The notes under the pieces were generated by a model, which ran no database searches, was not told the origin of the DNA, and saw only the letters and a list, made by a program, of their open reading frames with translations. Shown here in pieces: positions 29,985-64,000 of a stretch of DNA of 64,000 nucleotides. A program made the translations under genes and the position numbers. The DNA is from Halichondria panicea. Its lineage: Eukaryota; Porifera; Demospongiae; Suberitida; Halichondriidae. Positions within the stretch are counted from its first letter, which is position 1. Each line of letters begins with the position of its first letter. The DNA lies in NCBI RefSeq assembly GCF_963675165.1, contig NC_087392.1:3555442-3619441 (forward strand), in the 5' to 3' direction.

Positions 29985-30392
29985 AACCTTAACCAACAAG
30001 CTGAAAGACATCATGCATGCAAGACAGCCTGGAGCAAAGAGCTTGCCATCAATATAGAATCATGTCAGGGAACACTCCAAAACAACCAGCTATAAGAAGC
30101 CATCATCTATGATTAAAAGAAGTTATATCCAGGACCATGCATGTACCACAGCAGAAGAGCCTGAGGCCTCCTTTACAATGTATATACGTATAAAGTGGAC
30201 CGTACATGCATGCTACATGCAACAAAGGCCAGCTATTGAGAAGCCTGGCCAAAATCTCATCCGCCCTGTGTTCGACTGTGGGAGGGAGCAGCTCAATACT
30301 TGACTGAAAGTGGTCGCAAAGCAGCTAGGCTAAACGCACAAGTTAGTTTTATTCTCTGTTTTACGTTTTAATAATTTATTCTCGTTCACACA

Positions 30393-30990
30393 GTTAATGT
30401 GCATGTGACGCTCATTCAACTCCAAAATGATCTTGTTGTTGCCAAACCAGTTCAAGATACGACAAGAAATGAAGATTTTGATGAGCTCGAGCATTCTTCC
30501 TCATTAGTATTCACACCTGAGTTTGCCAATGTGGTCAATGTCGATGGATTGAGAATTAAAGACGGCAAGGTGTTTGTTATTTGGAAGTGGCAGGTGCTAC
30601 ATCCACAAGACAAGACGGTAATAATAGTGAGGGGAATTGCTGCTTGTTTTCGGCCAACGGAACCCCGGACTATTTAGATGCAGAGTCTGAAACAGTCACA
30701 CACCATACCTTTCAAGGTGATCGGATGTATTAAGGAAAAACTATATCCAAAAGTACTCTGAAAAGCAAGTGTACTTATTGACGAAGGTGTCCCTGTACCT
30801 ATTATATAGAAGTACATATTGAACCTGACAATCCTGTGACTCCAAATGCAATTGCGTTGTAGACGGTTCCTTTGGATACGTAGTGAAGGAAGCACGGGAT
30901 GCTGTGTACGATGCCCTCATAAGGAATGACATTACTGTTGTAACAAGTGGGTCAAATATGTCAGTGACTGGTATATACCGTATGGGCCCA
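30393..30990 (+). pseudogene. Decayed coding region with a HIRAN-like C-terminal half
   Basis: An open frame from about 30393 reads through LVVAKPVQDTTRNEDFDELE and VFVIWKWQVLHPQDKT to a stop at 30675. The same frame continues past that stop with FKVIGCIKEKLYPKVL, another stop and KASVLIDEGVPVPII. After a frame change come VHIEPDNPVTPNAIAL, then VDGSFGYVVKEARDAVYDAL. The order (FKVIG; EPDNPxxxNAIAL; GYVVKEA) resembles a HIRAN domain, a DNA-end-binding fold found in helicases and as a stand-alone domain. At least three stops and one frameshift mean it is not functional as read. I do not recognise the upstream half. It lies inside the 28375-33135 transposon and may be captured cargo. Confidence 0.4.
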
Positions 30991-37900: not shown

Positions 37901-38987
37901 AGCAGCGAGCTCCTATAGCATTGGTCAAGAAGGCTTTCACACTCTCATCTACCTCTATGATGGTCGTATGGTCGGGATGTCTGAGCTTGGTTCCATAGAG
38001 GCTATGGCAAGTCTGTGGTGCTTCCAACTGCTGCTTGTGAAGACAACTCGACCATACGACCACCGTAGATAGCCTCTTCTGGCTTCAGACTAGTGTGCAA
38101 GCCTTCTAGACAAACGTAATAGATGGCATAAGCCACAGCTTCATGAAAATCAGTCACAGAGGTTAATGTAAACGGACTAGTTTATGCACTGAAGGTTCGC
38201 AGTACGATTACCCATAATTATTCTGGGTAAGTTGAAGTGCACACGCATCACCCCTGCAATAGGTACAGGTCCTCTTTTCTACCTAGAGAAAAGTAGGGCC
38301 GGGAACAAGGCTAGTTACAGCCCATCTTTGAAAATGATGTTTGTTTTGATGATTAGCTCCCAAAAATTGAACACTCACCTTTGAAAGCTGCCCAATGAAG
38401 AGCACTGTCACCATTTATGTCAAGCAGGAATTTGTTGGCTCCTTTTTGTAGTAGGTAGCTGATACACAGCGACTGACCATACTGAGCTGAGATGATAAGT
38501 GGACTGCATCCATTTGCATCTAACGAATCGATGGGAACACCCCTCTCCAGGAACAGATCAAGGGTAACAGCATGACCATGCACACACGCCCAGTGAATAG
38601 GTTTTGGCCCATATTCATTTCTACTTTGCTCGTTAATGGGGCATCCACGATCAAGTAAGAACTCTAGCACATTGTTTGCTCCTCCAAGAGCTGCCCAATG
38701 CACAAAGGTGTGCCCCTCAGGATCTCTCTGCTGCAGAAACTGGTTTCCTTCCCGCTCCACTATTTCACGAACCTTGTTTAAATTGCTGTGACGTAGGAAA
38801 ATAACATAGCCAAGGTCTTTCATTTTTTGAACCAGCATTGCCTACACAATCTGTCCAGACAAAAAGCTTTTATAATTTATAAGCCTCACCCATATTTGCA
38901 AGCGTTGATAAAGGTGGTGACAACGCTCTCATCTGAGACTGGTTCAATCTCCACTTCACTGTCGTCTTCGAAGTCACTGTAAGACAT
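34986..38987 (-). CDS. ZDHHC17/13-like: Ankyrin-repeat DHHC palmitoyltransferase (10 exons)
   Basis: Exons, transcript order: 38987-38890, 38785-38379, 36911-36841, 36700-36638, 36397-36273, 36225-36129, 36065-35913, 35836-35655, 35601-35436, 35177-34986. All phases agree; 517 residues. An acidic N-terminus (1-30) precedes five to six ankyrin repeats (about 34-245; for example [20 protein letters not shown]). Two membrane segments follow (about 268-285 and 300-318). The cysteine-rich domain at 355-398 has all its cysteines and DHHC at 384-387. Two more membrane segments (about 400-450) and a soluble tail complete it. Ankyrin-DHHC enzymes S-acylate cysteines of client proteins at the Golgi; the ankyrins recruit clients. 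After DHHC this protein has R-W-L-N-N rather than the P-W-V of ZDHHC17, so it may belong to another ankyrin-DHHC lineage. Intron 2 (1.5 kb) contains a full family A element. Confidence 0.9.
36997..37560 (+). mobile_element. Family A element, best-preserved forward copy
   Basis: The left end is TTATGCCTCGGTGCGCATGC and the right end CGAGGCATCAGCACCAGCGG followed by TGCTTTCATA. GCCTCGGTG and CACCGAGGC are therefore inverted termini. A TATACGGTAGTGTGTTTGTG stretch sits just inside the left end, so TACCGTATA reads inward on the other strand. It is about 564 bases long and non-coding, in intron 2 of the DHHC gene. Confidence 0.75.
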
Positions 38988-43048: not shown

Positions 43049-44589
43049 CTATTCGGTTGCTGTTGGATCGTGAAAGAATGCTGTCAGTGCAAACACTAGG
43101 AACACAACTCCTCCAATTATAGTCACTGCAAACAAGGTTGATTTTGGTAAACAAAGGTTGACACACATTTTAAATACTACACAGTACCTGTTCTGACTGA
43201 TATCCGCTGTGCTACAATCTTCCCACCAATAACAGCAAGTGCAGTACACAAGGCATGACCCATAGTGCCACCTATTGTTACTCCTATTGGGTCCTGGGGA
43301 GGTTAAGACTGGCTGTTCACAATGTATAACAATCAGGCACACTTTTATACAGACAACTAATTGTACAAAGAGAACAAACCTCTCTAGCCCCTAGAACAAT
43401 GGTTGTGAGTTGAGACCTGTCACCCCACTCTGCGAGGAAGGTGAGGGTGAATGCCTGAACGAATATTGGGGACACAAAAGGTCTCAACAGACGCAATCTT
43501 CTTCTTAAAGGTGGAACAGTGGTCAGACCTTGCTCTGTATCTGTGAGACCCGGTTGTGACAGCTGTGAAGGCAAAGTAACATACAAGTGTGTACATGTTC
43601 ATCCACTTCATTATTAATTATATTACATACAGCTCTCTGCCAGTCCGATAAAACCAAAAACCAAGAGACAACTAACTGTTTCATCTCTCTTTCTGAGCTC
43701 TTCCGAAACTTCTTCAAATTCCTCCTGACCCTCATCTGGGCTCATATTGTATCCTTCATACAACATTTTCACCCCAAACAGTGCCAGAAGCGCAGTACAC
43801 GTGTAAAATGTGACTGATCGTGGAACGATCAGTGTTGCATAACCAAGGCACACAGAAAGGAATGTCATTAGACCTAGTGCGGACAATGCTCCACAGAATA
43901 CCAGCAGTCTAGAAAAGAAGGACACAATAGTCTACATTCAATCCACTTGGAGAGGTGGGCACATGTAAAAAGACTGTAAATGTACGCCTCACACAATGAA
44001 TGTTATTTACAGCAAAGGCATTGTGAATATACGTTACTATCAATAAAAGAAACAGTAGAAAAGACGTATAACAAGGCTAACATTTATAGTCCGTAGTGAA
44101 CAGAGATATAGATAGAATGCTTACCTAGAGTGCTTCATGGCCATAATAGCAGCAATAAAGAAAGTCTTGTCTCCAATTTCAGACACAATTATTACAGAAA
44201 TCGAGGCCAAGAACGCATGCACAAAACTCAGCCCCTCTGTCACCTGGTCTTTGCTGTCCTCTATTTTATCCGCTGGTATAATATCCTTGGAAAAAAGGAT
44301 GGATAATCAGGGATTTTATGAACACATGATAATGTACCTTTATAACATGGACTCCATCTTGTGGCTCCAAATCGAGGTCATCTGGTAATCGCTCCGCACC
44401 AGCCTTTAATTCTACTTGTTCTTCAACAGTATCTAGGCCTACATCTTTAAGATCTATAAAAGGCAAGTCCCTTTCCTGTCTCTTCAGTGGCTCACCTTGA
44501 GCTAGCTTCTGCTCCTCACAATTGATACTCACAGAAAACAGCCAAAAAATAGAAATACAGATGAGCAATTTGAACTGCTGCCCAGGCAT
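43049..44589 (-). CDS. TMEM165: TMEM165/GDT1-family Golgi cation transporter (6 exons)
   Basis: Exons, transcript order: 44589-44338, 44285-44125, 43908-43677, 43562-43380, 43293-43188, 43125-43049. Phases agree; 336 residues (human 324). Residues 1-24 look like a signal peptide (LLICISIFWLFSVSINC). Both signature motifs of the UPF0016 family are intact: EIGDKT at 120-125 and EWGDRS at 260-265. The MSPDEGQEEFEEV acidic stretch between the halves matches the vertebrate cytosolic loop. Six or seven membrane segments are evident, in two homologous halves. The family exchanges Mn2+/Ca2+ for protons in the Golgi and supports glycosylation. It is head-to-head with MICU and tail-to-tail with NDUFA2. 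A minus-strand AATAAA about 75-80 bases past the stop is a plausible poly(A) signal. Confidence 0.93.
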
Positions 44590-44832
44590 AACTAACTAAC
44601 TATAAAAGAGATAGAATAGGACCGGGCACAGTGCTAGTGCAGTACAGTACAGTACCTTACTTTTACATCAAAAATAATAGCAAACCTAGTTGGGCGTGGC
44701 CCGACTTCAGAGCTGGGCGTAGCCTATCATATCCCACATTAAAAAAAAAAAAAAAAAAAAAAATCATATCCCACATAGTGGGTTGGGTTGGGCACCGCCC
44801 AACTTGGCTAGGACACTCGACTCAGCGTAAAC
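44590..44832. promoter_or_regulatory. Divergent promoter between TMEM165 and MICU
   Basis: These 243 bases separate two opposed start codons. The stretch contains a 23-base A-run (about 44740-44762) flanked on both sides by TCATATCCCACAT, and nearby GGGCGTGGCCCGAC and CACCGCCCAAC GC-box-like motifs. The flanking 13-base direct repeats around the A-run suggest a small retroposed insertion or slippage. No TATA box is obvious. Confidence 0.45.
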
Positions 44833-47143
44833 ATGTCTCTGAGGATTGTTTTTAGAATTAGAAGTCTTTGCCATTCCAAGGCCAAGGAGAGCAAGCAGTG
44901 TGTTTGGAGAAATCTTCAAACGAGAGAAACAAGAGGAAGCAGCTTGCCAGTTCTAAAAAATGCTTGGAAATATGAGGGAGGGACTTGGAGATCTAGTTGG
45001 GCCTCTGCTGGTGCTTGTACTACTGGTTTTGCAGTCCTTGGATGGTATCTTTTCGACAAAAGAGAAAGGTCATTAAGGAGTGTGCACACACTTCAAGCTG
45101 CTGAGGATGAGGCAAAAGTGAGGAAAGTTTCTCTAAGGGAAAGAAGGTACAAAGATTTCTCTTCGGTGATGTACCACGGAGAGCCATACATGACTGGCAG
45201 GGATTTCCTAGAGGCTATTACCAAACAAGCCCCTAGATGTGAGTGTTGTTGTTAGTTTAGTTAGTTTGAGCACAATTTCCAAACTACTTTCATTCTTATT
45301 TTCTTTTTCACTCTATGTACGTGTTGTGTGTAGCATTTGAGCCTGTGTTTGTGGATGAAAAGACATTGAATAAGATCGTACAGGGGGCTCCATCTCGTTC
45401 CAAAGGCTCTCAACACCTCTTCAGAGACATGTGGAATGATGGTTGGTCTTATCTAGTCAGTGTAACAGTTGTACTTGGTTTTACTAACATTTTTTGCCTC
45501 AACTTGCAGCTATTCTTACGTATGCTGATTATCTATTTCTGTTGACAGCTCTTGTCAGTAAGTGTGCGTGTTTGCAGTGTGACTGAATTTAGTTTATCTC
45601 CACAGAAACTAAAAGGCAGTTTGAAATAGCTTTCAAAATGATTGATGCAGACCAGAATGATTATGTTGACTTTAAGGAGTTTCAAAAGGTAATTTCTCCA
45701 AAGCGTTACTTGTATGTGTTTGTGATTTTGTGATATTTACTCTAATTTTTCGCTGATAGGTTCAACAGTCTGTGACGCGGCAAAGAGATCATGCTGTAAG
45801 GATTACCTTCATGCTGCAATGTAGCTTATAATGTGTTGTGTACTCGTGTGTACAGTTAATTCAGCAGCAGCTCTCTCAAAGCTCACTCACTGTGCACTTA
45901 TTTGGAACTAAAGGAAACCAGAAGCTCTACTCGAAAGATTTCTACAAGTTTGTATTCGTTTGCATACCCATACCATAATGATACGTGTACATAGTAGTAT
46001 GTATGATGTGTGAGTTTTAGCATGTTTAAACAGATGCCACACATAATTATGTAATTGAGTTATATTACCATTGCCATTTCCTTTCTTTGAAAGATTATTA
46101 CTATGCCCCGATTTTTTGTATCAGGTTCATAGACGATTTGCAAACAGAAGTCTTAGAGATCGAGATATCCTTCCTCATCTTATGGTAGTGTCCAATGTGC
46201 ATGTAACGTGTATCATCTAGCTCCCTCTTCCGACCTTAACTTGTAATCACTTCAATCAGTATTCAGGAGGAACACCAACAATTTGTGCTGAGGACTTTGC
46301 AAGAGTTTTGCTGAAGCACACCACTTGGGATTTGGAGGGAGTCTTTGGCAGGCTGAAAAAGAGACCACGTAGTGAAACAGTTAGTTTTACCAGTCTTTGT
46401 CTATGTACTACATACATATACATATATGCATGTGGTCCTACGGCTCTTTCTGTATAATAACTATAGTACAATCTAATAGGGTGTTTCGTTCGAGCAGTTC
46501 AAAGACTTTTGTCAGTTGCTTAACTCACTGGATGATTTTGAGACAGCAATGGCTATGTACACAATAGCTGGCACAGCCGTGGCAAAGGAGGAGTTCAAGA
46601 GAGCTGCCAAAGTATGCATTGGGAGACCTCTAGATGAGACAGTTGTCAGCACAGTGTTCCACATATTTGATGTTGATGGTGAGCATGCATGCAGTCTCTT
46701 GGTGGTCATTTTATTGAGTCTGGTTTTCTTGGACAATTTGTAGGAGATGGTAAACTAAGCCATCGTGAGTTTATGGCTGTTATGAAGAACTGGAAACTTA
46801 GAGGATTCAAAGTAAGTTCTGGTTACATTGTACAGTATAACAAATTAATTGATGCAATATTATTTTATTACAATATAGATCAAAATTTAATGCATTCCAC
46901 TAAGTCTACCAAATTTCAATGGACGTATATATGTTGCAAAATGTTAACAGCTGGCCTTCTCTGCCAAACCTTTGTCTATAATAATAGAAGGTATACATTA
47001 TGCACCCACTAATGTACAGCAATTCAAACATGTAAGTGATTGCTATGTGATGTAACCACACACAGATGATGGAACACAAGAAACTGGGAGTGTGGGACGA
47101 ATTCAAAACCTGTATTAAGATGGAAATGAGAGAAAGGGCATGA
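44833..47143 (+). CDS. MICU: MICU2/3-like regulator of the mitochondrial calcium uniporter (11 exons)
   Basis: Exons: 44833-45238, 45334-45441, 45510-45557, 45606-45688, 45760-45795, 45856-45947, 46125-46164, 46251-46379, 46498-46678, 46744-46811, 47066-47143. All phases agree; 422 residues. The N-terminus is basic (MSLRIVFRIRSL), with a hydrophobic stretch at about 57-70, as in MICU presequences. Two canonical EF-hands are present: DADQNDYVDFKE (201-212) and DVDGDGKLSHRE (372-383), each with all calcium-ligand positions filled. The middle has VLEIEFNQYSGG and AEDFARVLLKHT, closest to the MICU2/MICU3 pattern. MICU proteins sit in the intermembrane space and gate MCU by calcium. The intron at 46165-46250 is AT-AC and looks U12-type. 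Without that reading, the VLEIEF junction cannot be spliced sensibly. Confidence 0.92.
46165..46250 (+). other. U12-type AT-AC intron in MICU
   Basis: The donor is ATATCCTT directly after the GAG codon. A CCTTAAC branch-site match lies at 46234-46240, and the intron ends AC at 46249-46250, about 11 bases past the branch adenosine. Using these borders restores the reading VLEIE-FNQYSGG, which matches the family. Using the nearby AG would lose two conserved residues and require a non-canonical donor. It is 86 bases long. Confidence 0.85.
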
Positions 47144-47422: not shown

Positions 47423-50400
47423 ATGGATTTAGATGTAGATGAACGCAGGGAGATCGTATCAACCACCATAGAGCGACTCTCTCTGGTGATAGGGGCATCA
47501 GGAAATGCAGAAGAACTGGTTAGCCTTGTCACTCAGATTGTCAAAGCCCTGAAAAAATTGATTGCGGGAGCGCCTGATGCAACCAAGACAAGAGGCACAA
47601 GTTCTCTAGCTGAGTTTGTTTTCGCAGCTAAAAAAATCGCTAAGGATGCCCGAGCAGTGGACTCTGCCTCACTGCAGCAGTTGTCCAGAACGAAAAAGGC
47701 CGTGGAAAGTCTAGTGAAAGAGGTGAACTTGTTTTATGAGTCTCAACAAAGTTACAGCAGTGATGTAGAGCTTGAGAGCCTGCTTAGACAAACCAGTCTC
47801 CCCTCCAGACCAGCAGAGCCAGTGAATGATGTGGGTAGAGTGAGCCCCACTGATGCACCACCTACCACAGAGACTGAACGACGACTAGCAGCTGAGCTGA
47901 GGAGACATCAAGAAAGTCTTCAAGCTAAGACCGAACCACAGAGAAACCCAGTGCAACATGGTCAACCATCAGATGTATTGCGGACAGCTATGGTAGGATT
48001 GCAGCGTGCCACAGGAGCATTGGTGGACGCATCCGGGCATAAGGCACCTGCCAAGGGCTCTGTGCTGGAGCCTACTCTACTCCTTACTAAGATGGTATCT
48101 ATGCTCATGGACTTGGTGGACAGTCTGTTTGTAAGCAAGTACCCCATGAGAACACAGGTGTGTGGAGTGGTCCATTGTTTACGCTACCTTTTATGCCTTA
48201 ACTGTTCTCAAACTTGTAGTTACTCCTTTCACTAATTAGCTCTTGCCTCTTTGCCCAATGTTCTGCTTATATGGTGTGGCTGATATTGAGTAGTGAACTG
48301 TCAATCATGAATATTTGTGTAATGTAGCATGTTATCGCTGGAATGTATACACCCATCAGGTTTGCTTTGTTCAAGAAAAGAGTATCCTAATAATTATGAC
48401 TATCACCACTTTGTCTTTCGAAATTGGCAGTTCAGAACCTGACATGCACAAAACTGTACTTAGATAGGCGTAGTTGAGCCGGGCCAGGCTGTTGATCTAT
48501 TATTAATTGACACCTAATCCTCACTTTTATGTTTCTGTCCATCTGGTTCTATTGACTAGTCTACTGACTAGTAGGACACTAGTTTCAATATCATTTTCTT
48601 TCCCCAGGTCCACTCATTCTGTTGTATGTTGATCGACAATGCATTGGTGTATGGCGAGCAATCTAAGACTGATGATGCTGCCTCTTTACGTCTCATCTCC
48701 ACCCAAGCCCCAGCTCTTATGAGTGCCATAGAGGTCATGGCCGAACAGTGTTATAAGAGGTATGCTGTAATTACATGTGTGGGCCCATGTTTACTTGTAT
48801 ACCTGCAAAACAGTGGAAGCAAGCTGATCGATGAAGGCCTTATTATGCCTCGGTGTGCACACGCGAGGTATACGGTAGTGTGTCTGTGTATACTGCTACA
48901 GCTGCTCCATGACAATGAAGTGCAAGTAAAAGATTCTGTAGGTTTTTAGTCACTGGATTGCAATTAGTGGATTTAACATCGAGTTATGGCACTTTGAAGG
49001 CTGCTGCAGACTCTTGCTTAACAAAATCTGTTGATATAACTTAGCTATTCTACTTACTTCTGCACTAGAGGTGGGGTCAAGAGTGAGAAAAGGGCTGCAA
49101 AGCCATTAGCTTAGCAGCCATTAATATTACTTTCAACAATCATGGTCCATCTTTCCCACTCTTTTCTGCATGCGTAACTAATTGTTAATTATATGTGTGT
49201 ATTTAACTAGAGCACTGAAGTGCTAATCCTCGGCTGTTGACATAATAAATAGAAACCAGAGGAGTACAGAAGCAACAATCTACAATAATAGAGACCGCGG
49301 TAAGGATCACTTCAGCTGCAAGTATGTAGATCCACCTCGAATAAAGGTCGCATGTAGAGCTAGGCAACATGCAGTTCAAGCTTCTTAGCTTCTTAGCTTT
49401 TGCTCGCTTTTATACAACAATTAACTAAGCTAAATCTACCAATATAACTTGTTGTGTGACCATTTTTACTGGCATTAGATGATGATTTCTTCCAACTATT
49501 TGGCCTGATCAATGACTCACATTAATTGTGTATCTGCATGTATTATACCGTAGACAATTGTATAGTCTCTCATGTCGCCTTGTTACAGTAATAATATTGC
49601 TCTGAACAAATTTGCAGATCAGAAAACATCAGAGAGAGTCAGAAGATGTCTATACAGCGTGGAGTTGACCTCCATGATCTTGACTTGAATGGTCCTGGTC
49701 ATACAAAGAGTCCTGTGGTCAGGAAAAGAAAAGATCCCCCATTGCCCCCAGCGAAGAAGGAGCAATTGCCTCCACCACTACCAAAGGTAGTGTTTGTACG
49801 TAAATATTTTTTGTGTGTTTTTTCTTTCAATACTTTACTGTGCTTTGCAGCTTACTTGGAAGTTTGGGGCGAATAATCCCAAAAAATAGTTTTGAAAGTT
49901 CATATAAAACCTTTGATAGAGTGCATGGTGCCATAATTATGTTGAGCCGTCACACTTATTGCCGAGCAGGAAGCGAGTTGAATAATCGTGCTACCTGATT
50001 CTGGCCCATGTGGATATAAATTGTAACGGATGTGGGTTGGGCTCCCCCCGGGGGCGCTTTAAGGCAATAAAGAAGCAAACGATGCACTTCCTTAGATGGG
50101 CGTGGCCGCTGTAGCTCTGCAAACCAGTACAACTTTATATGCTCGATCTCGTAGGCTTTTAGCTGTCTCTATAGCTCTTTGTACTGTAACAGCAAATACA
50201 AGGGAGGGACAGAAGAGCTAGAGCTAGACGACAGCAGGCAGATTAGCAGAGGTCAGCTCATTGTAGGTATCACAAAGTAGATCTACACTGAAATAGTGTC
50301 ACACAAACAGTCATGCCTGACATTTTAGTGTAGTTCCTATAAAGGCCTACTGTACAGATGATATAAAAGAGAACTTTTCATTTTAGCTGTTATTATCAAA

Positions 50401-53400
50401 CATAAACAAAAATCAGAGCTTCCCGCGAGGCGCCTGCGTATATGTATACATATGCCCTAGTATAATATATATAAACTTCCAGGTGAGCTGCAAAACACAG
50501 TACTCGTACTATTCATCACTATTTTCATATATGAACACAAGTCATTTTTGTTTGCAGGAATTTGAAATTGGGTGTATGATCTGTACAAATGTGGCTGTGG
50601 ATAGAGAGAGCAAGGAGATTGTGAGTGCACATACTCGTTGATAGCTTGTTACCTCTTTGTTTGAACACTCCGTGTGGTGAAGTGTGTACACGGTTAGTTA
50701 CGTGTACGTGCATAACAAATGAAGTTTGGTCTTATATTTACATATGATGTATTGTGAATTGCAGTGCTTACATTGAAGTGACCGTAATTACATTTGTCCT
50801 TTTAAGGTATTGGTAATTAGTGTGGCTGTATCTATTGCTAATTCTCTGGTATGCTTTGATCATAGCGGAGTGCAAGGTTGTTATGTGGGGGCTTGTTTTG
50901 TTTTTACTTTTTTGATTTTAGAATGCAATAATCACTCCTTCTCATAGCTGACTAAAGGCTCTGAGATTAAGCTGTGTGTTAATGAGAACAATCGAGTTGG
51001 CGATGTAAGAAAAATGCTTACCAAAAGAACAGGGCTACCACTGGAGCACATTCAACTCCGATTTAGAGTAAGTATCCTCTAGGTCCTTCCAACTTCAGTC
51101 ATGTATTGAGCGAGCCCTGGACCGTTTTTAACTGTAAAGCAATGGTCCAAACAATTGTGTAGTATTATCGAAGTGTATGCCTGGTTTCCTGCTTGCTCAG
51201 ATTCACTCTTTACCCGCTTACACGTAGGGTGACGATGTACTGCTGGATGAAGTAAAGGTAACACCGGACAATGCCATCCCTTATTTCATGTTCAACAAGT
51301 TTGAACCTGGGGAGGAGGAACTGCAAGACTTCAAAAAAAAGCATCGCAGGGAGCGAAGAATAAGGATTGACAATGCAGACTGGTCAAAAGTCCCAAAGTA
51401 AGTCTTTGATTCTGGTTGTTTTGCAACTAAAAGTGTTGTCATGGCTACACAGTTTTAACTTACATAGGTGAGTTGCATGTAGTAGCCCTTACAAGTAGTG
51501 GCAGTACACGTTTTACGCTCAGGGAATCAGGATATACACTCACTGAGTCCCTTTCTCTTGGGTGCATGGTTTCCAGTCTATGCAATGCATAGGCAGGGCT
51601 GCATTGAGGGGGGGGGGGCGAGGGGGTATTTCTCCCCCCTGGGCCTAGCTTTGCCCCCTGGGATTTAATTTTGATACAATAGTAGGAAGCTGAGGTAGGT
51701 AGTCAGTTTAGTTTTAAACAGCTATTCTGTGCACCTAACACTACAATCATGTAATGATGATATCACTAAATTGATAACTATATGAGCTGAAATTACGCCA
51801 GAATTGATCTATGCCCCCAAATATCTAAATTTTTATGCTCCCCCGGACCCCCTTAGTTTGGAATAATTCGCATCGGGGGCTTTGCCTCCCCCTATATTTT
51901 TCATTTGCCAAATTTGCCCCCCTGACCCAAAGTCCTGGATGCAGGCATCCTGTGACTTTGTTACCTGCCAGGCTCTGCCCATCGACTGACAGCCTACGTT
52001 CATTTTTACTGTGCCACCGTCACATAACTAAGCGAGGCAGGCTCTCCTTTAGAGGAAGCTGGACACGCGTCATTAACTGTCATCCTTTAGGTCTGTAACA
52101 TAATAAATTATATAGAGCTGGAATACACTATGACTTAACTAGCTATGATTTTGTATCCAACACAGTACTGTATTTCCATACCGTAGAAGCTGGATTATTA
52201 TAGCACATTACTCGATTATAAGCATATTAATTTACACACGCTCAACTGCTGGTTTTTTCCAATGAAAGTTATAGCTAGTACTATTCTTGGTAACTGGTGA
52301 TCGATATCAGTTTGGAAGGACTTTTTGTGTGCACTCAGCTGTTATAATGAGGTGCTGATACCTCTTATACAAACGTTATAATTATCGTGGTGCGTTAATT
52401 TGTTTTGCTGCATGCTAGGCAGAATCACAGAATCACAGGGAAACTCAAAGAGTGGGACATAATCGACCATGATTGTTGTTAAAAAGGATCGATGCCAAAA
52501 GTCCAAGTCTAAAATTAATGGCTGCCTCTCTTCTCACTCTTGCAGCTACCAATAGCTAGAGTTCTAGTGCAGAAGTAACTACAAGTAGAGTATAGCAACA
52601 CTCTATCATGGACAAGTTTTTCTACACACTCTTCTGAAATGAAAAGGCTGCAGTGGCATTCCAAGTAAGCAAAACTAGGCAGAGAACCAAGCATTATTTT
52701 GTAAATCCACGAATTAAAATCCGAAAACATGACTAGAAGCCTATAGAAACTCTTACTTGCACTTCATTGATCCTTGAGCAGCTGTAGCAGTCTACAAACA
52801 CAAACACACAAACACATACCTCGCTTGCGCATGCGCACCGAGGCATAATTATATGAGATGGACATGGACCCCTTCTGTTTCATATATTAAATTGGAGGTA
52901 CATGTAGCAGGGTTCTGCCCAGGAATTTTGAGAGGTGGGTAAAAATGATGGGGGAAAATTCGCCCATGTAGGGGGTGTGTATGGGAAGGGGGACACAAAT
53001 TTGAACATGCATGTGTTGTAAGTATATAGCTGAAATAATTATATATGTGCATTGTTGTACTTGCATCAGTACAGTATGGTGCTATACTAAGATTTCTTCA
53101 TCACAGGGTCATAATCAGTATACTTGGAAGTATTAACTGCATGCACCCAGTTGCTCACTCTCTAGCTTGTCTTTCCCTTAGCAGGTAGTCCAACTCCCTG
53201 TTTTAAGGCAGAGTATAGCTAGCTAGCTAGCTGCAGCATAGATAGAGTAGAAGGGGATTGGCAACGGAAGTGGTTCACGTGATGTTTTACAATGAAGTCT
53301 ATGTAGAGCTCAGAAACAATCCGTGTTTTGCTTTCTACCCCGGGTAAGTTTACCGGGAAACTTATTGAGTCTAATCATAGTCTATGCATGCGTCTCAAAG

Positions 53401-56400
53401 ACCCCTCTAACACTTAAACAAATGCCCCCTGATGGTGAGTATCATTTGGAAACGAAGAAAATACAATCTTGATTGTCATGAAGTAACTAGTCTAACACAG
53501 AGTGATTTTTCATGCTTGTGTCAGTTTACCTACTGCCCTTTGCAGCTCACTAGAAAGTTTAGGGAAAATAGTAAATTGCAAAAAACCACTTGAGATAAGT
53601 GTAACAGTTTACATAAGTAAACCACAATACTATAGAGCCCTCTAAGGACCAAGTTAAAATTTTGGAATAGACCAGATCTTTATGTTTTGTTGTTGTAGTT
53701 TCTCACACTATTTGTTGTAGCTCACGTAAGCTCACGTGAAGTTTTGGCAAATAGTATTACTGTAAAATGCAAAAAACCACTGTGTAACAGTTTACAGCTA
53801 AACCACAACTTGGCCAAATCTCTATCTATAAGTACTAAGTTTGGGCTGTAGGAGTAGCTTGATTACAACATAACTGCCTGTTCGTCTAGCTATTTTTTGT
53901 TGACTGAGAAACAGCCTGCTGCTGAACCAGTCTCCAATTCTCTGCCACAATGACATAGTACGCCACTTAACTCCTCTTGATAAGGATTAGTTTTTCATGG
54001 TTACCCAACTACAGTAGTTTATGCTGAAAACTGTACTAAGGTATATACTATATATCCACATAAAGATCTGAATCTTCTGTTCCAAAATTTATACTTGTCC
54101 CTTGTTCTATAGTATTGTGGGTTACTTGTGTAAACTGTTACACTTATCTCAAGTGGTTTTTTGCAATTTACTATTTGCTCCAAACTTCCAAGTGAGCTGC
54201 AAAGGGCAGTACTACGATATAGCTAAGGTTGTGTCACTAAGTAGTGTGCTGTGTCCCAAATGGCCACAAGTATTTGATGAAGTTGATGTTTAGCAGCAAA
54301 ACTGCTCGTGGACTTTTTACAGCTAGACAGCAAAAACAATTCTCATGAATTATTCATGTTTAGACCCCATGTTGGAAATAAGCCTCGATTAAAACTGCGG
54401 GAAACACGGATGGTACTTCGAGGGTACCTCGTTTCCAATCCCTCTCTACTCAATCTATGGCTGCAGTACTCCTCGAACTCAACAAAGCCATGCTGGAGCT
54501 TCAATTAATTGTTCTGGTCATGCGCAGTAGAGTTCAATTAATAGTTAGCTCTATATAAGGCACATTAAGACAGTAAAACTGGTAAGCGAAGACTAGCAGC
54601 TAAACTGACAGTACTTGTAGAATGTAAAGCAGTGGTCGGAAAATATCTAGTGGTGGTCGCAGCTTACCTAAACGACCACTGTAGGCAGAACTCTGATGTA
54701 GGTGGTACTTCAGAGGATTTGCCTCTTTTAAGAATGACCTGTTTAAGGTTACGATAAACCGTTTGCTCATTAATTATTCATGAGCTAGTGATCTTGAGCA
54801 GCTACATGCACAATCATGTTGAAAGTCCGAAGTCCAAAACATACAGTTAATCCGGTCACCCTTGGGACAGTGCAGCTTGGCCGGAATAGCGAGGTGGCCG
54901 GCTGTATTTCAGGAAATAGCCAAGGCTTAAAAACGACCTTACCTCGAATCTAATGACTAGTTTTGCTGCGGTTCTTGTCTCGGGGATAATGAAAGATATT
55001 AAATCATCAATTTTATTTGCCAAACCACACCCAAAACGTCATATCCGGCCGTAATAAACGTATAAAATTACATTGAAAACCTAGTTTGGGGCAGCCAGTA
55101 CTGGCCAGCTCAGGTGCAGTCTACTGTAGCTTGACTATAATATGCAGGGCCACACAAGGATATATTTTTTTTAAAGGCTACTGAAGCTCACAAGAGGCTG
55201 TTTTCTTTGGCTCCATCAGCCATTTTAAGTACACGTTCTTGTTTTGTGATAGTTACTTGACCTGGAACGAAAAAACACTTCGTGTAGCCCTCCAAAAAGT
55301 ATCCTATAAGAGCAAGAGCACAGAGGTAGAAATAACATTTATAGTTTCACAAAACTCATTTTAAATATAAAATCATGAATATTCATGAGCAAACAGTTTA
55401 CCATTAACCTAAAAAGATTTTCAGGAAATCTAACTATTAATGGCACAGTTAGGAGCTTGCTTAGCTCACCACTCCATTGGTTTCCATGCCGTTAGCTTAG
55501 TTAGCTATTGGTGTCATCACTCGTCACAGAGACATCCAGGTACTGGGTGGGACTCGAAGATGACTGCGCATTATAAGCGCATCCTGGAAAATAAACGCAT
55601 AGAGCTCTATAGCTGCTATATGTATAATAATTATATTGATCCCACGCTAGTACCAAGATAATTCCGATGTGTATATAATTGTAAAATGTTTTGTTGTGGC
55701 ATCGGCAGTGATTGACTGTCTGATTGCCTTGGCCAGTTTGGCATTTTGTGTTGGCATCGGTCACCTTGATATTGTATATGCATGTGCATTGACCCCAGAA
55801 TGAATTGATTGCTTCATTTATCGTATAGCGGGTATATTTCGAGGGTGTAACTTTGGCGGTTTTGTTGTTGCGAATTCACAAAGTTTGCATATGTTTGATA
55901 CTCACAAAACATTCTAGTAATAATATTATGATAATAGAGACCCCATTATTATACAGTAAAATTAATCAATACTACATGTTGCAGTCTTGTTGCTGTGGCG
56001 TTGTATGACTACGAGAGTCTTGGTGATGGAGAGGATGACAGTTTGGAGTTTGTGGAGGGGGAGTTGATTGAGGTTAGGAGTGTGTGTATTGCCTTATAGG
56101 TGCCTATGCATAGTGCATTACAAAATGTATATTGTTATAATATCGTTTCATACATGTACATTAACCCTTTATGCGCCGTAGGCCACGATTGTGGCTCGTT
56201 GCGGTAGCTAATTACTAAAATACGTTATCTTTCTACCTCAGGAGCAGTGCCGGATCCAGGAAAAGGGAAAGGGCGTTCTAAACGAGCGAGCACTGAAAAT
56301 CGCGCAGAGCGCGAAATTTTTAGAAGGTTACGCCCACTTTTCCAGTCACACGTTGTGCAGTAAAACTAGCAATTCTTACTCCCATCTTACTAAAGCCGTA

Positions 56401-59400
56401 TTAGCTAGACTGAAAGGAGGTTTCCATGGCACCCTGGGGTCCCCCTCTGGATATGCCACTGAGGAGTGACATCATTCTGTAGCTAATTGCATATTGCTGC
56501 GATTTTATTATTGCATGGTCAAGCAGTGGGTGATACTACAGGAATTTTGCAAAACTAGCAAACTCATCGTGGTCTAAAATCGTATGCTGTTTGATTTTAC
56601 TCGAGAAAAGACACCCTTGTGAGATCTCTTTGTTACACATAGTGTAGCAAGGTTTAGCTATAATTATAGATACAAATCTTCAGCAAACATCTTGAAGTTC
56701 TGGATATTGATTAGCCTCCTTCACAAGGCCTCAACAAGCTAGGAGGCCTGCTACTGACCGAGAAATATCCTGAATAAAATATACAGACAAAGAATACTAT
56801 TAAGGGTAGCTATTAGGATTCTATCGGACGGGCTAGAAACCTTCACAATCGAACTTCTACTTTCTTCAATCCACTTCCGTTCGTTGTGACGTCATTGTTT
56901 TACTGGGCATATACGATGCTATCCGGAGTCCCCACTTTCTGGTGATTATGTGGCGTATGCGCAAACAGTCGATACCAGGCCCATCTTCAGTGCGGCCTGG
57001 AATCAAGGCTAGATATTGATGGATCAATGCTTGCATGCTTTTGAAATTCTCTTGTTGAGGTGGCTGAGAAAGATATCCCATACACCGTATGTGTCGCACT
57101 GAAACTCTTCATCACTGTAGCGATACTCTGATCTGACCCACTCACTATTTTCATTTGCACATAAAATGTTATGTACTCGTAAATGGCTCCTTCTATAGCT
57201 ACTTCTTGTCTGAAATCTCCTCGCCCGGCTTTAAAGACATATCTTCATTCAATTTAGGTTGCTAGGCAATCAAAACGCATTCCTTACCAATAATGAGTTT
57301 CTGGCTTTAATTTTTCCATATTAATTGTCTAGTGAATTAGTACACATCCATCAGGTGTGCAGTGATCTAATTTGACGGCAAAAGGGTTAATGTGTAAATT
57401 TAAAACAAGCGTGTATAATATACTATGTGTAAGTAGAGGCACCAACTCAATAAGTACATGTATTATGTAATACTATGCAGTTATCAGGTCATTCTTTCAC
57501 AGATCGTAGAGAAGAGTGGGGATGGCTGGTGGACCGCTAGAATTGATGGGCATGTAGGAGTCATCCCTGCCAGTTTTGTGGAGGAGATTGCAGTACCACA
57601 ATCCAAAGATGAGGCGAAGAAACTCGTAAAGAGGTTCAAGCAGGGAAGGCTGGGTGCTGAAAACCACACCGAGGCCAAAGCAGAAACGATGTTATGTGAG
57701 TTGGCCAGACTTACAGTATAATGCTTCAGTGCATGTATACTAAGTGCTAATTTTTATCGTCAAACTGAGAAGCCGTAATTTACATAACTGTGTATCATTT
57801 ATTTCTTCCTGTAGTTGATGATGATCCACGAAGCCACACGTCGTCACCATCACCTTCCACTGCTGCCCCTTCCCACAATCCTCTGTCGGGTGTTAGTAAA
57901 GCCCTTCGGCGAATCCACAGTGGTGGATCCCATGACTACAGCAAGCTAGGCAACAAGAAGAACATTGAGCCATTAGTCAAAGAGAAAAAAGATAAGAAGA
58001 GAGGCAGTTTGTTTAAGAAGAGAACAAATTATGACCCGATAATGGAATACAAAGAGGTTCGTCGGTCCTCTGATACACAAGTGTCGCCTCTTCTCTCTTC
58101 ACCGAATAATCGTAAACATGTGGGCTCTGTCCTCGAGTACAATCAGGAGCCACAGACATCACCCCGTATTGCAGTCAAGCGATTAAGTCGTCCTGCCTCT
58201 TCTCCACGCTTAGTTAGAACTACTGAAAAGACACAACTCAGTGAGAAGCACAGCGATTCATCCACTTCACCTCTCTTATCTCAAGCTAATGAGACACCTC
58301 AAGTTGGAAACAACTCCCTCAAAGTGAAAAGACGTCCTCCTCCCCCACCACCGCCCTATCAGAAGACCTATCCCAGACGCGCTGTAGAGGATATTGACCC
58401 AGACTCAATTACAGTGCATGTGGCTGCACCAGAGAATGATCCTGAATTGGAGCCACTCCCAGTCAAGTCTAGCTCTAGTATGGAAGATCTTTTGAGGAAT
58501 TTGGAAGAGTTTGATGAGCTTGCCAGCCCATCTCCTCTGAATGAATGGAATTTGGATGTAGAACGAGGAAAAAGAGACTTTGCAACAATACCAAGGAACG
58601 AGCTGCCCCCCAAGTTTGACTCATCTGATTCATCCCCTGACCTGCTAAACACACAGACAAATGACTCATTAGCTCCGCAGAAACCTCCTCGAAAACGCTC
58701 GAAGAAGAAACCTGAGCCCTCATCATCGCTCCTACCGCCTCCTCCCGAGTCACCCCCTGAGACAACTACTGAAAATAGGCTGCAAACTAACATTGTGGGT
58801 GGTGAGGGTCGGGATAGTCCCGTGCCGCAACCCCCTCCTCGGCGCAAGTCACGCAAAGGAACCACCGAGAGAAAGAACGAAGATAATAAAGGGCAAGCCT
58901 CTCCTGTTCCACCTCCCAAACCACTTTCTCTCTCAAGAGAAAAAGAATCACCATTACTATCAAGTAGAAAATCACCGATTGTGCCCCATAAACCTGGAAA
59001 ATCTTCTCCTATCCCACCGCCAAAACCTAAGGGTTTTTCAAAACCTATTCCGGGATGGCGTGTTAACTTGGAGAAGCCTGTTTGTTCGAGTGCCCCTGTC
59101 TCACGTACTGTATCACCCGAGGATCAGAGCTGCCTCTCTGCCAGTTCAAGAGAAACCTCTGTGTCTACTGACCTGCTAACAAGCTCCCCTGTAGTGATGC
59201 GCAGGACTAATGCTGTTAATGCAAGACTGGACCCTGACTTCTCAGATGATGAGCTTGAGGATTGCACTGTGAGTTACCTTTCATTGTCAAGGTTATAAGT
59301 GTGTGATCAGTCCATTCCCTGTTATATTATTTTATTACACAGTCGCGTAGCCTCGAGGCATTACTGGGTAAGGGGTCGTCGTGTTTTTATGTAATATACA

Positions 59401-61633
59401 GGCAACTCGCCCTCGTGCTTGCATGTGCCTGTATATTTTATATACAATATAAAACATTCGGTCTCATGCTATATCTATTACTACTTAGGTTCCTGCTTTA
59501 AATAGTTAATCATGTTTCTACTAACAGTTAGCATAACTATTAAGCAGCTTAATTTCCACTTCCATGATTTTAAGTGTTTTTCAAGGGAGATTTTCAGCTA
59601 TCTACACGTTATCTATTTTTATAGGGTATTGGCAAGGAAGGTGTTCTACATAAAGAAGGAGCTAGAAAGGTGGAGTGGAAATCTCGTTACTTCAAACTCA
59701 CTGAGAACACCATTGACTACTTCGACAGAGCCATGGAGGCAGACGTATGTTGCTGACATAAGTTATAGCTATGCATGTAATGAGTACTCAGGAAAGAGAA
59801 TTATCATTATTATCCGGACAGATATGAAAAAATTCATTTTTTTTTTATTAGCCAATGATTTTAATTATTGTTTTCATACAGTCCTCACCTGCCTTGGGTC
59901 AGATTCTGGTGAGCCGGATGCAGGGTGCCGTACCATTAGGAAAGAAAGATGGTTTCCTGTGTTTCGCCATCAACATGAAATATGACACTAGTGTGGTCCT
60001 AGGATGTCACTCACGGACTGTAAGTACACAACGCTGTGCAAATTTAAGGACGTGTATTTTGCATATACAATCCCTATACGAAACAGTGTGCATGTAAACA
60101 TGCATGTAGTCTCACACATCCCATATGTGTATGTAATGTTTTCCCTCTCTACTACCTAACTTATACAGTACACTCATTGTGTGCCCAAAGTATGTATAGA
60201 TTTATGTGTGATTTACTGTCAGTATACGTGCACGTGTTTGCATGTGAGCAGGACATGGATGATTGGGTGAAGAGCATCAACAAAATGGTCAAAGGAGCAA
60301 AGTGTGGAGGTAATATTACATGTAGCAAGGTTTGTTTTCTACAAATTGACTCTGTTTGTGAGATCTACATAATAGTTTATGGAAACCCAAAGGGCTGGTT
60401 CTAAATCCATTGGAAACTTCCTAGCATTTTAGATCATACATGCAGGTAGCAACCATGTGTCTCTAGCCAATCAGATTTGAATGTTCTTATCTACATGATT
60501 GTCTAAGTGAGCACATTATTTCTAAGTTGGATAGAATGCTATACTTTTAGCCAATCACATTGCAGAATTTATGGCTAACATGATTTAATACTGTATAGTG
60601 CGCTCTAAAAGCATTTCGTTGCATAATGTTCGTGGGTTGACTGCTTACCAGAAGCCATGCCTTTAATCTTGGCATATACATGTAGCAGATAATTAAAGAA
60701 CAATTTTCGTTTAGGATTGCTAACCTACGAAAACAGCGAAAATTAAGCTCCTTAAAAATTTCGCGCTATACGATAGTCACATGATAATGATGTTGATTGT
60801 ACATGATACGTATTATGTAGGTCAATTAAGAAACCTCTTTCTTTGTAGAGATGATTCAGACTTTCTCTAGTGCCTATAATATTGCTGTCAAGTGTGTGGA
60901 GTACCTGTCCTCTCATGTGATTGAGGAACGAGCCCTCACGGTTGCCACTGCACCCAGCTCCCGCGTCAACCGATGGCTAGAATCTATAGACAAGGGACAA
61001 GTTAGTAATCTTTTTGCTTTGTACGTACATGATTTTGCCTTGAATTTATTACAATTTGTGTTTTTAAACTTTTGCTCAAGCCTCGACCCTATTGTAATGT
61101 CAAATGCTATCATAATGCATGTCATGTACATGTAGCTAGTTGACCTTCTTAGGTAAAGCTTATGCTAGACAATAGACAGCAATTCGCTACTGGTATGTAG
61201 GCACTTTGAGTTACTATGCACACATCGCTACTGGTATGCAGGCACTTTGAGTTACTATGCATACATCGCTACTGGTATGTAGGCACTTTGAGTTACTATA
61301 GGCATACATACATACACACATGTTCATGTATAGCTACATGTGCATCTTTTAGCCTCTCGTTGTAGCACAATCTCTTTCTAGCATACAAATTAATCTCCAC
61401 CCACATAGGAACCAGACATAAGCAAGATGCCTGATGCCACTACTGCTGCCTGTCTGCTGCGCTCTTTGTTCAGGAAAGGTCGACTGGGGTGTCTTGTCAA
61501 GTACAGTCTCGCTAAAGAGGTGGCTGAGCTCACTCAGAGTGCCAACCCTATCTCTATTCTTAGCACTAAGTTGAACAAACTCTCACTGGAAGCACGTGAT
61601 CTGCTCAAGCAACTACTTAGATTGTTTTCAAAG
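47423..61633 (+). CDS. Ubl-SH3-PH-RhoGAP-like scaffold protein, 3' end beyond the window
   Basis: Exons: 47423-48157, 48608-48759, 49618-49786, 50558-50620, 50948-51067, 51228-51397, 55985-56072, 57503-57695, 57815-59268, 59625-59744, 59882-60019, 60252-60309, 60849-61000, 61409-61633; phases agree over 1279 residues. Residues 1-300 are alpha-helical, loosely like talin or vinculin bundles; I do not recognise the family. A PPLPP-rich linker (325-352) follows. Residues about 374-440 have a ubiquitin-like pattern (EIKLCVNENNRVGDVRKML; LEHIQLRFRGDDVLLDE). The SH3 domain (about 472-545) has ALYDYES, GDGWWTARI and GVIPASFVEEI. Residues 564-1048 form one long Pro/Ser-rich exon with many PxxP and RRK motifs. 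The PH domain (about 1049-1153) has KEGVLHKEG and a C-terminal DMDDWVKSINKMV helix. A RhoGAP-like domain starts near 1155 but lacks the arginine finger. It probably links actin, Rho and phosphoinositide signalling; this is inference. Confidence 0.85.
49206..49445 (+). mobile_element. Family F element, 5' part only
   Basis: It begins ACTAGAGCACTGAAGTGCTA and shares TTAGCTTTTGCTCGCTTTTA with the other F copies, but lacks the GCCTCGGGTAA end. It is in intron 2 of the scaffold gene, right after a partial family A copy (about 48843-49180). Confidence 0.5.
51594..51946. mobile_element. Family I element with G-run and C-run ends
   Basis: The left end is CAGGGCTGCATTGAGG followed by a long G-run. 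The right end has TCCTGGATGCAGG, the imperfect inverse. The interior alternates C-runs (CCCCCCTGGGCC) with AT-rich sequence. A second copy is at 61669-61865. It lies in scaffold intron 6. Confidence 0.6.
52341..52852 (-). mobile_element. Family A element, reversed copy
   Basis: It runs from GGTGCTGATACCTC (truncated left end) to TCGCTTGCGCATGCGCACCG followed by AGGCATAATTAT. Interior landmarks are AAACTCAAAGAGTGGGACAT and ACTAGAAGCCTATAGAAACT. It is in scaffold intron 6. Confidence 0.65.
53237..54459. mobile_element. Family K element, 1.2 kb, with a 7-base target duplication
   Basis: The ends are CATAGATAGAGTAGAAGGGG and the inverse of CATAGATTGAGTAGAGAGGG. GCTGCAG sits immediately outside both ends. 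Inside, about 53535-53635 and 54105-54215 form large inverted arms (AACAGTTTAC and AAGTGGTTTTTTGCAATTTA in opposite senses). It is in scaffold intron 6. Confidence 0.65.
54743..55412. mobile_element. Inverted-repeat element (family L)
   Basis: TTAAGGTTACGATAAACCGT then TTGCTCATTAATTATTCATG at the left faces the inverse at the right (CATGAGCAAACAGTTTACCA, then TTAACCTAAA). It is 670 bases long, with about 40-base ends. It lies in scaffold intron 6 and has no clear open frame. Confidence 0.6.
56801..57012 (-). mobile_element. Family H element segment, copy 2
   Basis: It reads as the reverse of 22095-22320: TTCAATCCACTTCCGTTCGT, TGTGACGTCATTGTTTTACT, and finally GCGGCCTGGAATCAAGGCTA. It lies in scaffold intron 7, which splits the SH3 domain. 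Confidence 0.5.
60594..60774. mobile_element. Family C element, diverged copy
   Basis: It shares GCTCTAAAAGCATTTCGTTG, TGACTGCTTACC and the TTTCGCGCTATACG end with the copy at 23986-24212. The terminal heptamers have drifted (TACTGTA). It is in scaffold intron 12. Confidence 0.5.
61184..61300 (+). repeat. Tandem repeat, about 2.9 copies of a 41-base unit
   Basis: Units start TCGCTACTGGTATGTAGGCA at 61184, 61225 and 61266 (exactly 41 bases apart), with one or two substitutions between units. It is in scaffold intron 13, in the middle of the RhoGAP-like domain. Confidence 0.85.
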
Positions 61634-61668
61634 GTGCGTACATGACATTGTACACAATTGTGTTTAAT

Positions 61669-61865
61669 GCAGGGCTGCATTGAGGGGGGGCGAGGGGGGT
61701 AATTCGTCCCCCCCCCTGGGCACAGTTTCTCCCCCCCCCCCCCCCCCTAGGATCTGGCAGATTCATTCGTACTGCTATAATTCTGATGACTTCACCCCTC
61801 CTACATTTTTAAATTGCCCAATTCGCCCCCCCCCCCCCTGATCCAAAATCCTGGATGCAGCCCTG
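61669..61865. mobile_element. Family I element, short copy
   Basis: GCAGGGCTGCATTGAGG plus a G-run at the left, and a C-run then ATCCTGGATGCAGCCCTG at the right, give ends that are inverse copies. The G-runs (GGGGGGG, GGGGGG) and C-runs of up to about 17 could form quadruplex or hairpin structures. Confidence 0.65.
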
Positions 61866-62098
61866 TAATGCACCCGATACTAAAGTTCTATAGTCATATT
61901 TATATTTGATTCACTTTACTGGCAACCTACCCAATTCATTAGCAGCATTTAGCATTTCAAGTAATTGAGGGAATCGAACAAGTATCCGTAAATGTCTGGG
62001 GTAATTAGAAGTGCCTAGAACATTATTGTAGGTAGTACCGTCACCCTGGAATTGACACTGAATCAATATTATAATAGATATGCATGCTTACCTGTATT

Positions 62099-63220
62099 AA
62101 CTAGAGCACTGAAGTGCAAACCCTCGGCTGGTGCCATGATTATAAGAGTATATAGTGATATAATGCAGTGCATGCATGTAGCAACTCAAGAGCAATCAAA
62201 CTAAACACTGGAGAGGCATGCATGCTGAGAACAGTGGTAGTACATGAGGCATTGTGGAAACCTGGCCATGGAGTCTTAGAGAAGTATGGCTCCTACCAGG
62301 CTGCTGCATAGATAAAAGAGCTACTGGAGTATAAGAGGATCGATCCAGAGTCAGTTAACAACCAGTCACAATTCTAGCTTTCTACTTTAGTGACCCTATT
62401 CCATTGTTCCTGGTACGGGATCACTTCAGCTGCAAATACGTAGTCTACCACGTGTAGCTAGCCAACGTGCAAGTTCAGGCTTCTTAGCTTTTGCTCGACA
62501 AAGAAGCTTTAACATCAAAAGCTGCCACTATTTAAAACTAAGATATTGTTGTATGAAGGCTATCTGTGCTGTAAACACAGTGCTGTGGTACCTAGGTGAG
62601 TAGATATACCTGTGACAAACAAACTAGAGCACTAAAGTGCAAACCCTCGGCTGGTGACAAGAAACCAGAAGAGTGATATAATACAGTGCATGTGGTGATG
62701 TTATCTATGGCTTAACTGTCCTAGCACAGAAACTCAGGAACAATAAACAGACTGGAGGCATGCTGAAACATTTGATAACAGTGTTTTAGTGGCACATAGA
62801 TATATGCACTGTGGACTAGGATCACAGCAAAGATGCCTGGAGTCTCAGAGAAGTATGGCTCTTGCATGGATCCCAGAGTCAGCTAACAGGGCCAGGGACA
62901 ACAAACCAGTCACAATTCTAGCTTTCTATTGTAGTGACCCTTTACCATTGTTCTTGGTACAGGATCAACTCAACTGTAAATATGTAGTGTATCTCAAATA
63001 AAGGCCGCGTGTAGTTTGCTAGCTGCCACGTGCAAGTTCAAGCTTTTCGCTAGACAACGAAGCTTTAGTAACATCGAAATCTGATATTGTTGTGTGAAGG
63101 ATATTATTATATGCTGCAAACGCAGCGCTATGGCATCCAGGTGAGTAGAGATACTCGTGACAAACAGACAAACAAACCAACGGACTACTATACCCTCTGG
63201 CCGCGGCACGGCCTCGGGTA
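62099..63220 (+). mobile_element. Two family F elements in direct tandem
   Basis: Both begin ACTAGAGCACT(G/A)AAGTGCAA (62099 and 62623) and share TTAGCTTTTGCTC-type and ACAGTGCTGTGG/GCAGCGCTATGG blocks. The second ends at CGGCCTCGGGTAA, after which a second end-like block (GACTACTATACCCGTGGCCG) is repeated to about 63265. No coding capacity is seen. Confidence 0.6.
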
Positions 63221-63371
63221 ACAAACCAACAGACTACTATACCCGTGGCCGCACCTCGTGTAATAACATACATAACTCTTGGTTATGTGACTGTTTGCCA
63301 CTGTAACCCTTGCACCTAAGTGTGTGAAATATTGTGTTACATCTTGTTTATCAATTTAAAAAAGTGCACTC

Positions 63372-63555
63372 TACCGTATAGCGGGTATAAATGTTCGTGG
63401 ATTAAGCACGTACCACCACAAACATTTATAACCTCGAATTTAATATCGCATGCAAGCAATGCTGCAAAGAGTCCAATGCTGCAAAGAGTCTGCTATTCCA
63501 CGAAAATTAAATCCGCGAAAATGTATACCCTCGAAATATACCCGCTATACGGTAT
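63372..63555. mobile_element. Family D palindromic element
   Basis: The left end is TACCGTATAGCGGGTATAAA and the right end its approximate inverse, ending ATACCCGCTATACGGTA. Inner segments also pair (ATTCCACGAAAATTAAATCC with AT-rich counterparts). A partial relative (TATAGCGGGTATATTTCGAG) is at about 55822-55845. Confidence 0.65.
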
Positions 63556-64000
63556 TTTGCTGATACATGTGGCTGTATGTATAGCGGGAAATTTTCGCAT
63601 TTTGGCTTCAGAGCCCTCAGCAGAAATGTTTGTGGGTACATTTCAATGCAAGGAAACCGCCTACCGATAGCTTTGCATGTGAAATACCAGTGCGTGGGAG
63701 TTTATCCCAGTTTTAATTTTCGCGTTAACTGCCCTGCCCTCGAAAATGCGTTAATATTGACCCGCTGTGTTACCCGGACCGTAGATATTTACGTATCTAT
63801 GTCCGGACCTAGCTACTTATTCTGGCCTACTTTCCAGATCGCCGGAGGTCACGTGATCGTCGGCTCCGTAGGGCCATTGCCAGAATGCGTATATTGCTAT
63901 TCCGGATCTAATTAGTTGTATGGGGGTCCCAACTGGCCCTACGCATCTGGAAATCTCACGTCAGTAGACGGAACTACAATAAAAACAGGTGGAAGATGAG

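Follow-up and report, generated by a model that had tools for sequence, protein, structure and literature searches.

The gene at 47423–61633 on the plus strand of the window (the whole 64,000-nt stretch of Halichondria panicea DNA that was analyzed) is best explained, with moderate confidence, as a single gene for a phosphoinositide-recruited scaffold, a membrane adaptor in which an SH3 domain and a proline-rich region are combined with a PH domain and a pseudo-RhoGAP. The predicted gene is long, rich in exons and animal-like, and its product would be a modular signaling scaffold whose RhoGAP domain no longer has the residues expected of an enzyme.

The 14 exons were rebuilt from the sequence, and their span matches exactly the coordinates given in the earlier note. 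All 13 introns are of the GT..AG type and their phases close, leaving a stop-free spliced frame of 3,837 nt (1,279 aa) that begins with the ATG at 47423 and extends up to a GTGCGT donor (61634). The open frame starts two codons upstream of this ATG, directly 3′ of a stop. For the coding test, the six frames of each exon were scored with a codon model trained each time on the other 13 exons, and 2,000 draws of random intronic windows of equal length served as the control. No stop interrupts the annotated frame in any of the 14 exons, and in 13 of them its codon score is the highest of the six; in exon 13 it scores 0.11 versus 0.12 for a frame with four stops. For 13 of the 14 exons the score is matched by at most 2% of the intronic windows, a value reached for exon 2. 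Exon 4, with 21 codons, is the weakest in this test and its score is equaled by 9% of the draws. The coordinates and reading frame proposed earlier are correct, and the in-phase 14-exon model is borne out by both the GT–AG exon chain and the codon scores. An Rfam scan of the whole window returned nothing at gathering scores. The exons and their predicted contents are listed in Table 1.

Table 1. Exons of the predicted gene and its longest intron, with the protein segments assigned to them
Feature	Position	Strand	Content
Exon 1	47423–48157	+	Start codon, predicted four-helix bundle A (aa 5–107), Pro/Ser linker, first two predicted helices of bundle B (aa 182–239)
Exon 2	48608–48759	+	Last part of predicted bundle B, to about aa 296; putatively helical
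Exon 3	49618–49786	+	Linker with proline motifs DPPLPPAKK and LPPPLPK
Exon 4	50558–50620	+	Likely first strand of ubiquitin-like domain
Exon 5	50948–51067	+	Core of likely ubiquitin-like domain, aa 374–413
Exon 6	51228–51397	+	End of likely ubiquitin-like domain (to about aa 440), then basic linker
Intron 6	51398–55984	+	4,587 nt, phase 2
Exon 7	55985–56072	+	SH3, first half
Exon 8	57503–57695	+	SH3, second half, and basic tail
Exon 9	57815–59268	+	485 aa, Pro/Ser/Lys/Arg-rich, probably disordered, SH3-ligand motifs
Exons 10–12	59625–59744, 59882–60019, 60252–60309	+	PH domain
Exons 13–14	60849–61000, 61409–61633	+	RhoGAP domain without arginine finger

The PH domain is matched by Pfam PF00169 at aa 1052–1146 of the spliced protein (E = 1.7e-10), where its 41.8 bits lie above the cut-off of 25.1. 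When the PH–RhoGAP piece is searched against the PDB, 49 solved chains are matched at E up to 10; the best PH chains are those of KIAA0640 (which we take to be SWAP-70), pleckstrin 2, TAPP1 and DAPP1, and the next are those of SET binding factor 1, Akt and GRP1/cytohesins. The name of the DAPP1 record itself refers to 3-phosphoinositides, and the domain retains a WKxRYF stretch that is common to TAPP1. Several of the matched proteins, namely TAPP1, DAPP1, Akt and GRP1/cytohesins, bind lipids produced by PI3K. By analogy, this set of relatives suggests that the ligand of the PH domain is a PI3K-product phosphoinositide.

The SH3 domain is similarly clear, with a match to SH3_1 at aa 474–522 of the spliced protein (E = 2.1e-11; 43.7 bits, above the cut-off of 22.9) and a match of the exon 8 open reading frame alone to SH3_2 (7.1e-6). 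Potential ligands for such a domain are found in exon 9, where six starts of class II SH3-ligand motifs and five of class I compare with averages of 1.62 and 1.64 in shuffled sequences; these counts are reached in 0.65% and 2.35% of 2,000 shuffles, respectively. The excess is modest: three of the five class I starts belong to one proline run and two of the six class II starts overlap. The stricter PxxPxR pattern shows no excess in exon 9 (2 versus 0.79, reached by 18% of shuffles), and no Pfam family matches this region at E up to 1. The exon 9 motifs may be bound in cis by the SH3 domain.

Pfam PF00620 places the RhoGAP domain at aa 1166–1278 of the spliced protein (E = 5.3e-6; 26.8 bits, above the cut-off of 24.5), with the match covering profile positions 4–119 of 148 and the C-terminal part lying outside it. 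An alignment with four solved chains (ARHGAP12, ARHGAP35, ARHGAP15 and chimaerin) locates the changes that matter for activity. The GIYRVSG segment present in three of the four chains (GLYRVSG in chimaerin) reads ALTVATA here, so that a valine occupies the position of the arginine finger and the flanking glycines are also lost. The LPxPL motif, found in all four chains, is lost as well, and an arginine takes the place of the second-helix lysine; the arginine that follows this position (FFRE in ARHGAP12 and ARHGAP15) is kept. The domain scores only 6.8 bits with a profile built from the four chains, and when its single sequence is searched against the PDB, nothing is matched at E up to 10. The domain is probably a catalytically inactive pseudo-RhoGAP. 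A RHO review (PMC8305018) describes human RhoGAP proteins that lack the arginine finger as catalytically inactive, OCRL1 as binding GTP-Rac1 without stimulating hydrolysis and p85 as RhoGAP-like with no detectable GAP activity. Because the catalytic arginine is lost, the sponge protein probably serves to assemble signaling proteins at membranes and not to switch off Rho enzymes, and its RhoGAP domain is so highly diverged that it might not bind any Rho protein.

These features can be combined into a working picture of the protein. The PH domain would bind phosphoinositides, probably PI3K products, and thereby bring the protein to membranes. The SH3 domain could engage the proline motifs of its own 485-residue tail, an arrangement that might hold the protein closed and self-inhibited, or else the proline motifs of partners. 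Both helical bundles and the ubiquitin-like domain would act as protein-binding modules, and the RhoGAP domain, with its catalysis presumably gone, would offer a surface on which partners dock, perhaps a Rho protein in its GTP-bound state. The overall role would be that of a scaffold, whose way of working we compare with that of p85 or OCRL1 and not with that of ARHGAP9/12/15/27. The earlier note had proposed a scaffold linking phosphoinositide, SH3-ligand and Rho signaling. The scaffold idea and the domain order are both supported, the phosphoinositide element is strengthened by the PH matches, and the RhoGAP element should be understood as a pseudo-RhoGAP. The replacement of the arginine finger and the loss of LPxPL had been missed, and the incomplete 3′ end is a further correction.

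The gene most likely runs past the 3′ end of the window. In the remaining tail (61634–64000), Pfam finds neither a RhoGAP nor an SH2 match among the 12 plus-strand open reading frames of at least 40 aa, a size limit below which a shorter exon would escape. The four-chain RhoGAP profile detects nothing convincing among 111 tail segments, but this profile is narrow and gives the real exon 14 only E = 0.81, which makes its negative result weak. With the gene open at this end, the RhoGAP domain would be cut, the C-terminus would lie beyond the window and further domains could follow.

Upstream of the SH3 domain, a Pfam ubiquitin match spans aa 376–415, with E = 0.022 in the spliced protein, 0.0054 for the block alone and 0.024 for the exon 5 open reading frame alone. 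At 14.9–16.9 bits it falls below the cut-off of 25.4, and PB1 (0.14) is the second family matched by the block alone. A PDB search with the same block returns six chains at E up to 10, with values between 0.014 and 1.2: two ubiquitin variants, polyubiquitin, SUMO2, the design Hydra-1ubq and one ADP-ribosyltransferase record. We consider a ubiquitin-like fold likely. The PDB alignments place an arginine at what we take to be the Ile44 position of ubiquitin and the block shows no di-glycine end, which argues that the domain is probably a binding module rather than a modifier. The domain chain put forward in the earlier note keeps its order, with SH3, PH and RhoGAP above their Pfam cut-offs and the ubiquitin-like block below its own with agreement from the PDB; its last element is better called a pseudo-RhoGAP.

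Residues 1–298 look like two four-helix bundles, which we designate A and B. Single-sequence AF2 models contain helices only, both for exon 1 (mean pLDDT 50.5, pTM 0.25) and for the first 123 residues alone (mean pLDDT 64.9, pTM 0.53). The low-confidence model covers exon 1 only, so that bundle A is represented by its four helices and bundle B by its first two. The two bundles can be aligned locally with a score that 13 of 1000 plain shuffles equal; this hints at duplication, but a common helical pattern could produce it too. Profile searches of the N-terminal half, which had been suggested as a check, return no Pfam family above any cut-off for the head (aa 1–352), in keeping with its description as unrecognized, and for the ubiquitin-like block a sub-cut-off ubiquitin match accompanied mostly by ubiquitin and SUMO chains in the PDB. 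Readings of the N-terminal half as PX, BAR/F-BAR or MyTH4 were dropped, as no such Pfam match was found.

Two questions bear on how far this picture extends: (i) does the head belong to a known class of helical proteins and (ii) is the exon chain one gene with one kind of product. For the first, the head could be a focal-adhesion-type helical rod, making the protein a talin/GIT/FAT-related scaffold of adhesion sites. This reading is compatible with the best explanation and we regard it as doubtful. Five Pfam families match bundle A when it is searched alone, all below cut-off: I_LWEQ (0.0063), GIT1_C (0.011), DGKD_4H (0.011), EFR3_ARM (0.038) and a talin rod segment (0.13). The presence of I_LWEQ, GIT1_C and the talin rod segment in this set favors adhesion, as does the fact that none of these three models is matched by any of ten controls, made up of nine shuffles that preserve the hydrophobic pattern and the reversed sequence. 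DGKD_4H and EFR3_ARM fit the bundle about equally well, however, and the controls are themselves prone to matches: some Pfam family is matched at E up to 1 by seven of the ten. Two of these seven match unrelated families at E-values below that of I_LWEQ (4.3e-5 and 4.7e-4), and two others match models of helical families, one for a spectrin repeat (0.024) and one that is VBS-like (0.051). With the whole head as query, I_LWEQ weakens to only 0.87. Foldseek, run with a low-confidence AF2 model, matches nothing at E up to 0.001; the matches listed (50 of 549) begin at E = 0.29. Among them are sponge vinculin and Pyk2 FAT, which would suit an adhesion rod, but also cytochrome b562 and GPCR fusions. 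The internal A–B similarity points in the direction of a rod, whereas a PDB sequence search with bundle A finds three designed helical proteins and one ribosomal protein and no adhesion proteins. Since two controls outscore I_LWEQ, we treat adhesion only as a lead.

For the second question, the exon chain is predicted to be one gene, a conclusion that we hold with high confidence. The competing arrangement is improbable: two adjacent genes, one for a helical-bundle/ubiquitin-like protein ending near exon 6 and the other for an SH3–PH–RhoGAP protein starting in or after intron 6. Such a division would account for intron 6 being by far the longest (intron 7 has 1,430 nt), for the immediate termination that an unspliced exon 6 would undergo (open reading frame end at 51401) and for the AATAAA/ATTAAA motifs in intron 6 at 52102 and six other places. 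It is at odds with the splice signals, as exon 6 ends at a full GTAAGT donor and exon 7 begins after a TTGCAG acceptor, both in phase 2. Moreover, the open frame of exon 7 contains no ATG from its upstream stop as far as the SH3 domain and therefore needs an upstream exon, possibly an unseen one within intron 6. Part of the length of this intron could be explained by a 106-nt inverted repeat (53531–53636/54106–54211; 93% complementary, 469 nt apart). Within a single gene, the product might instead be a working RhoGAP of the SH3–PH–RhoGAP kind, as in ARHGAP9/12/15/27, with extra N-terminal parts. The identical domain order, the Pfam score above cut-off and the retained arginine after the lysine position are what one would expect of such a protein, but the loss of the arginine finger, its flanking glycines and LPxPL, together with the lysine-to-arginine change, leaves this highly improbable.

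Comparison of the proposed scaffold with known systems reveals partial likenesses. ARHGAP9/12/15/27, human RhoGAPs with SH3, WW and PH domains, likewise have an SH3 domain before a PH domain that directly precedes RhoGAP. The sponge protein differs from them in its helical bundles, ubiquitin-like fold, long proline-rich spacer and missing arginine finger, and no WW domain is matched in Pfam scans covering the protein in pieces. The GRAF/oligophrenin proteins (ARHGAP10/26/42) consist of a helical N-terminus that forms a BAR head, PH and RhoGAP domains and a C-terminal SH3 domain; they share the helical N-terminus, PH, RhoGAP and SH3 as parts, but the order differs and no BAR domain is matched here by Pfam. 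To our knowledge, p85 has no PH domain, ubiquitin-like domain or helical head. OCRL1 has a PH domain and, as far as we know, neither SH3 nor ubiquitin-like domains, and we know of no human protein with the present domain chain. The likeness to p85, the PI3K regulatory subunit, consists of the SH3 domain, the proline-rich stretches and a RhoGAP-like domain that the RHO review gives as lacking detectable GAP activity; the SH2–iSH2–SH2 portion of p85 is not seen here, where the 3′ end lies outside the window. OCRL1/INPP5B are alike in combining a PH domain with a RhoGAP domain that, for OCRL1 in the same review, is without an arginine finger, and unlike in that no phosphatase domain is seen in the sponge protein.

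In the main text of a compilation of human SH3 proteins, the words ubiquitin-like, UBL and Ub-like are absent, and it places the human SH3–RhoGAP proteins with BAR, PH or FCH partners (PMC10453029). The domain chain does not appear in the available text of this compilation or of the RHO review (PMC10453029, PMC8305018), and, judging from titles and the openings of abstracts, none of the papers listed in the literature searches describes it. Among viral contigs, the spliced ubiquitin–SH3 block has 10 pattern matches and exon 1 has 17, and exon 1 has a further 51 in prokaryote genomes; tblastn confirms none of them. In such scans of contigs and genomes, a pattern that crosses an intron has no chance of matching.

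A broader possibility, to which we give a rather low probability, is an as yet undescribed family of scaffolds in early-branching animals that fuses a talin/FAT-like helical rod and a ubiquitin-like domain to SH3, PH and a pseudo-RhoGAP and couples adhesion sites to PI3K lipids and Rho proteins without GAP activity. If the scaffold reading holds across a lineage, it would add a further pseudo-RhoGAP scaffold linking lipid, SH3 and Rho signaling, in an arrangement unlike those of p85 and OCRL1, and it would illustrate the mixing of signaling modules by animals. Annotation pipelines will probably label the seemingly inactive domain as RhoGAP.

Pfam was also applied to ten other open reading frames of the window. 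Exons of a class I PI3-kinase catalytic subunit, with p85-binding and kinase domains, lie at 7836–19635 (plus strand). This PI3-kinase shares the window with the scaffold gene, whose PH domain probably binds PI3K lipids and whose RhoGAP domain is p85-like and probably inactive, a link that may be chance. DHHC palmitoyltransferase and ankyrin-repeat exons at 35567–38841 (minus strand) belong to a gene that presumably resembles ZDHHC13/17. The region 43052–46740, just upstream of the gene, holds a GDT1-like piece at 43.6–43.9 kb (minus strand) and EF-hand pieces at 46.5 kb (plus strand); both are below the Pfam cut-offs and presumably resemble TMEM165 and MICU, respectively. The open reading frames at 30375–30674 and 44812–45252 have no Pfam match. 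A 17-base tag of the ctagagcactgaagtgcaaaccctcggctg-type repeat has no match in viral contigs; within the window, stretches of this type recur at 62090–63190 and near 49210 and probably represent a dispersed repeat. The inverted repeat of intron 6 (53531–54211) resembles a small transposon-type element.
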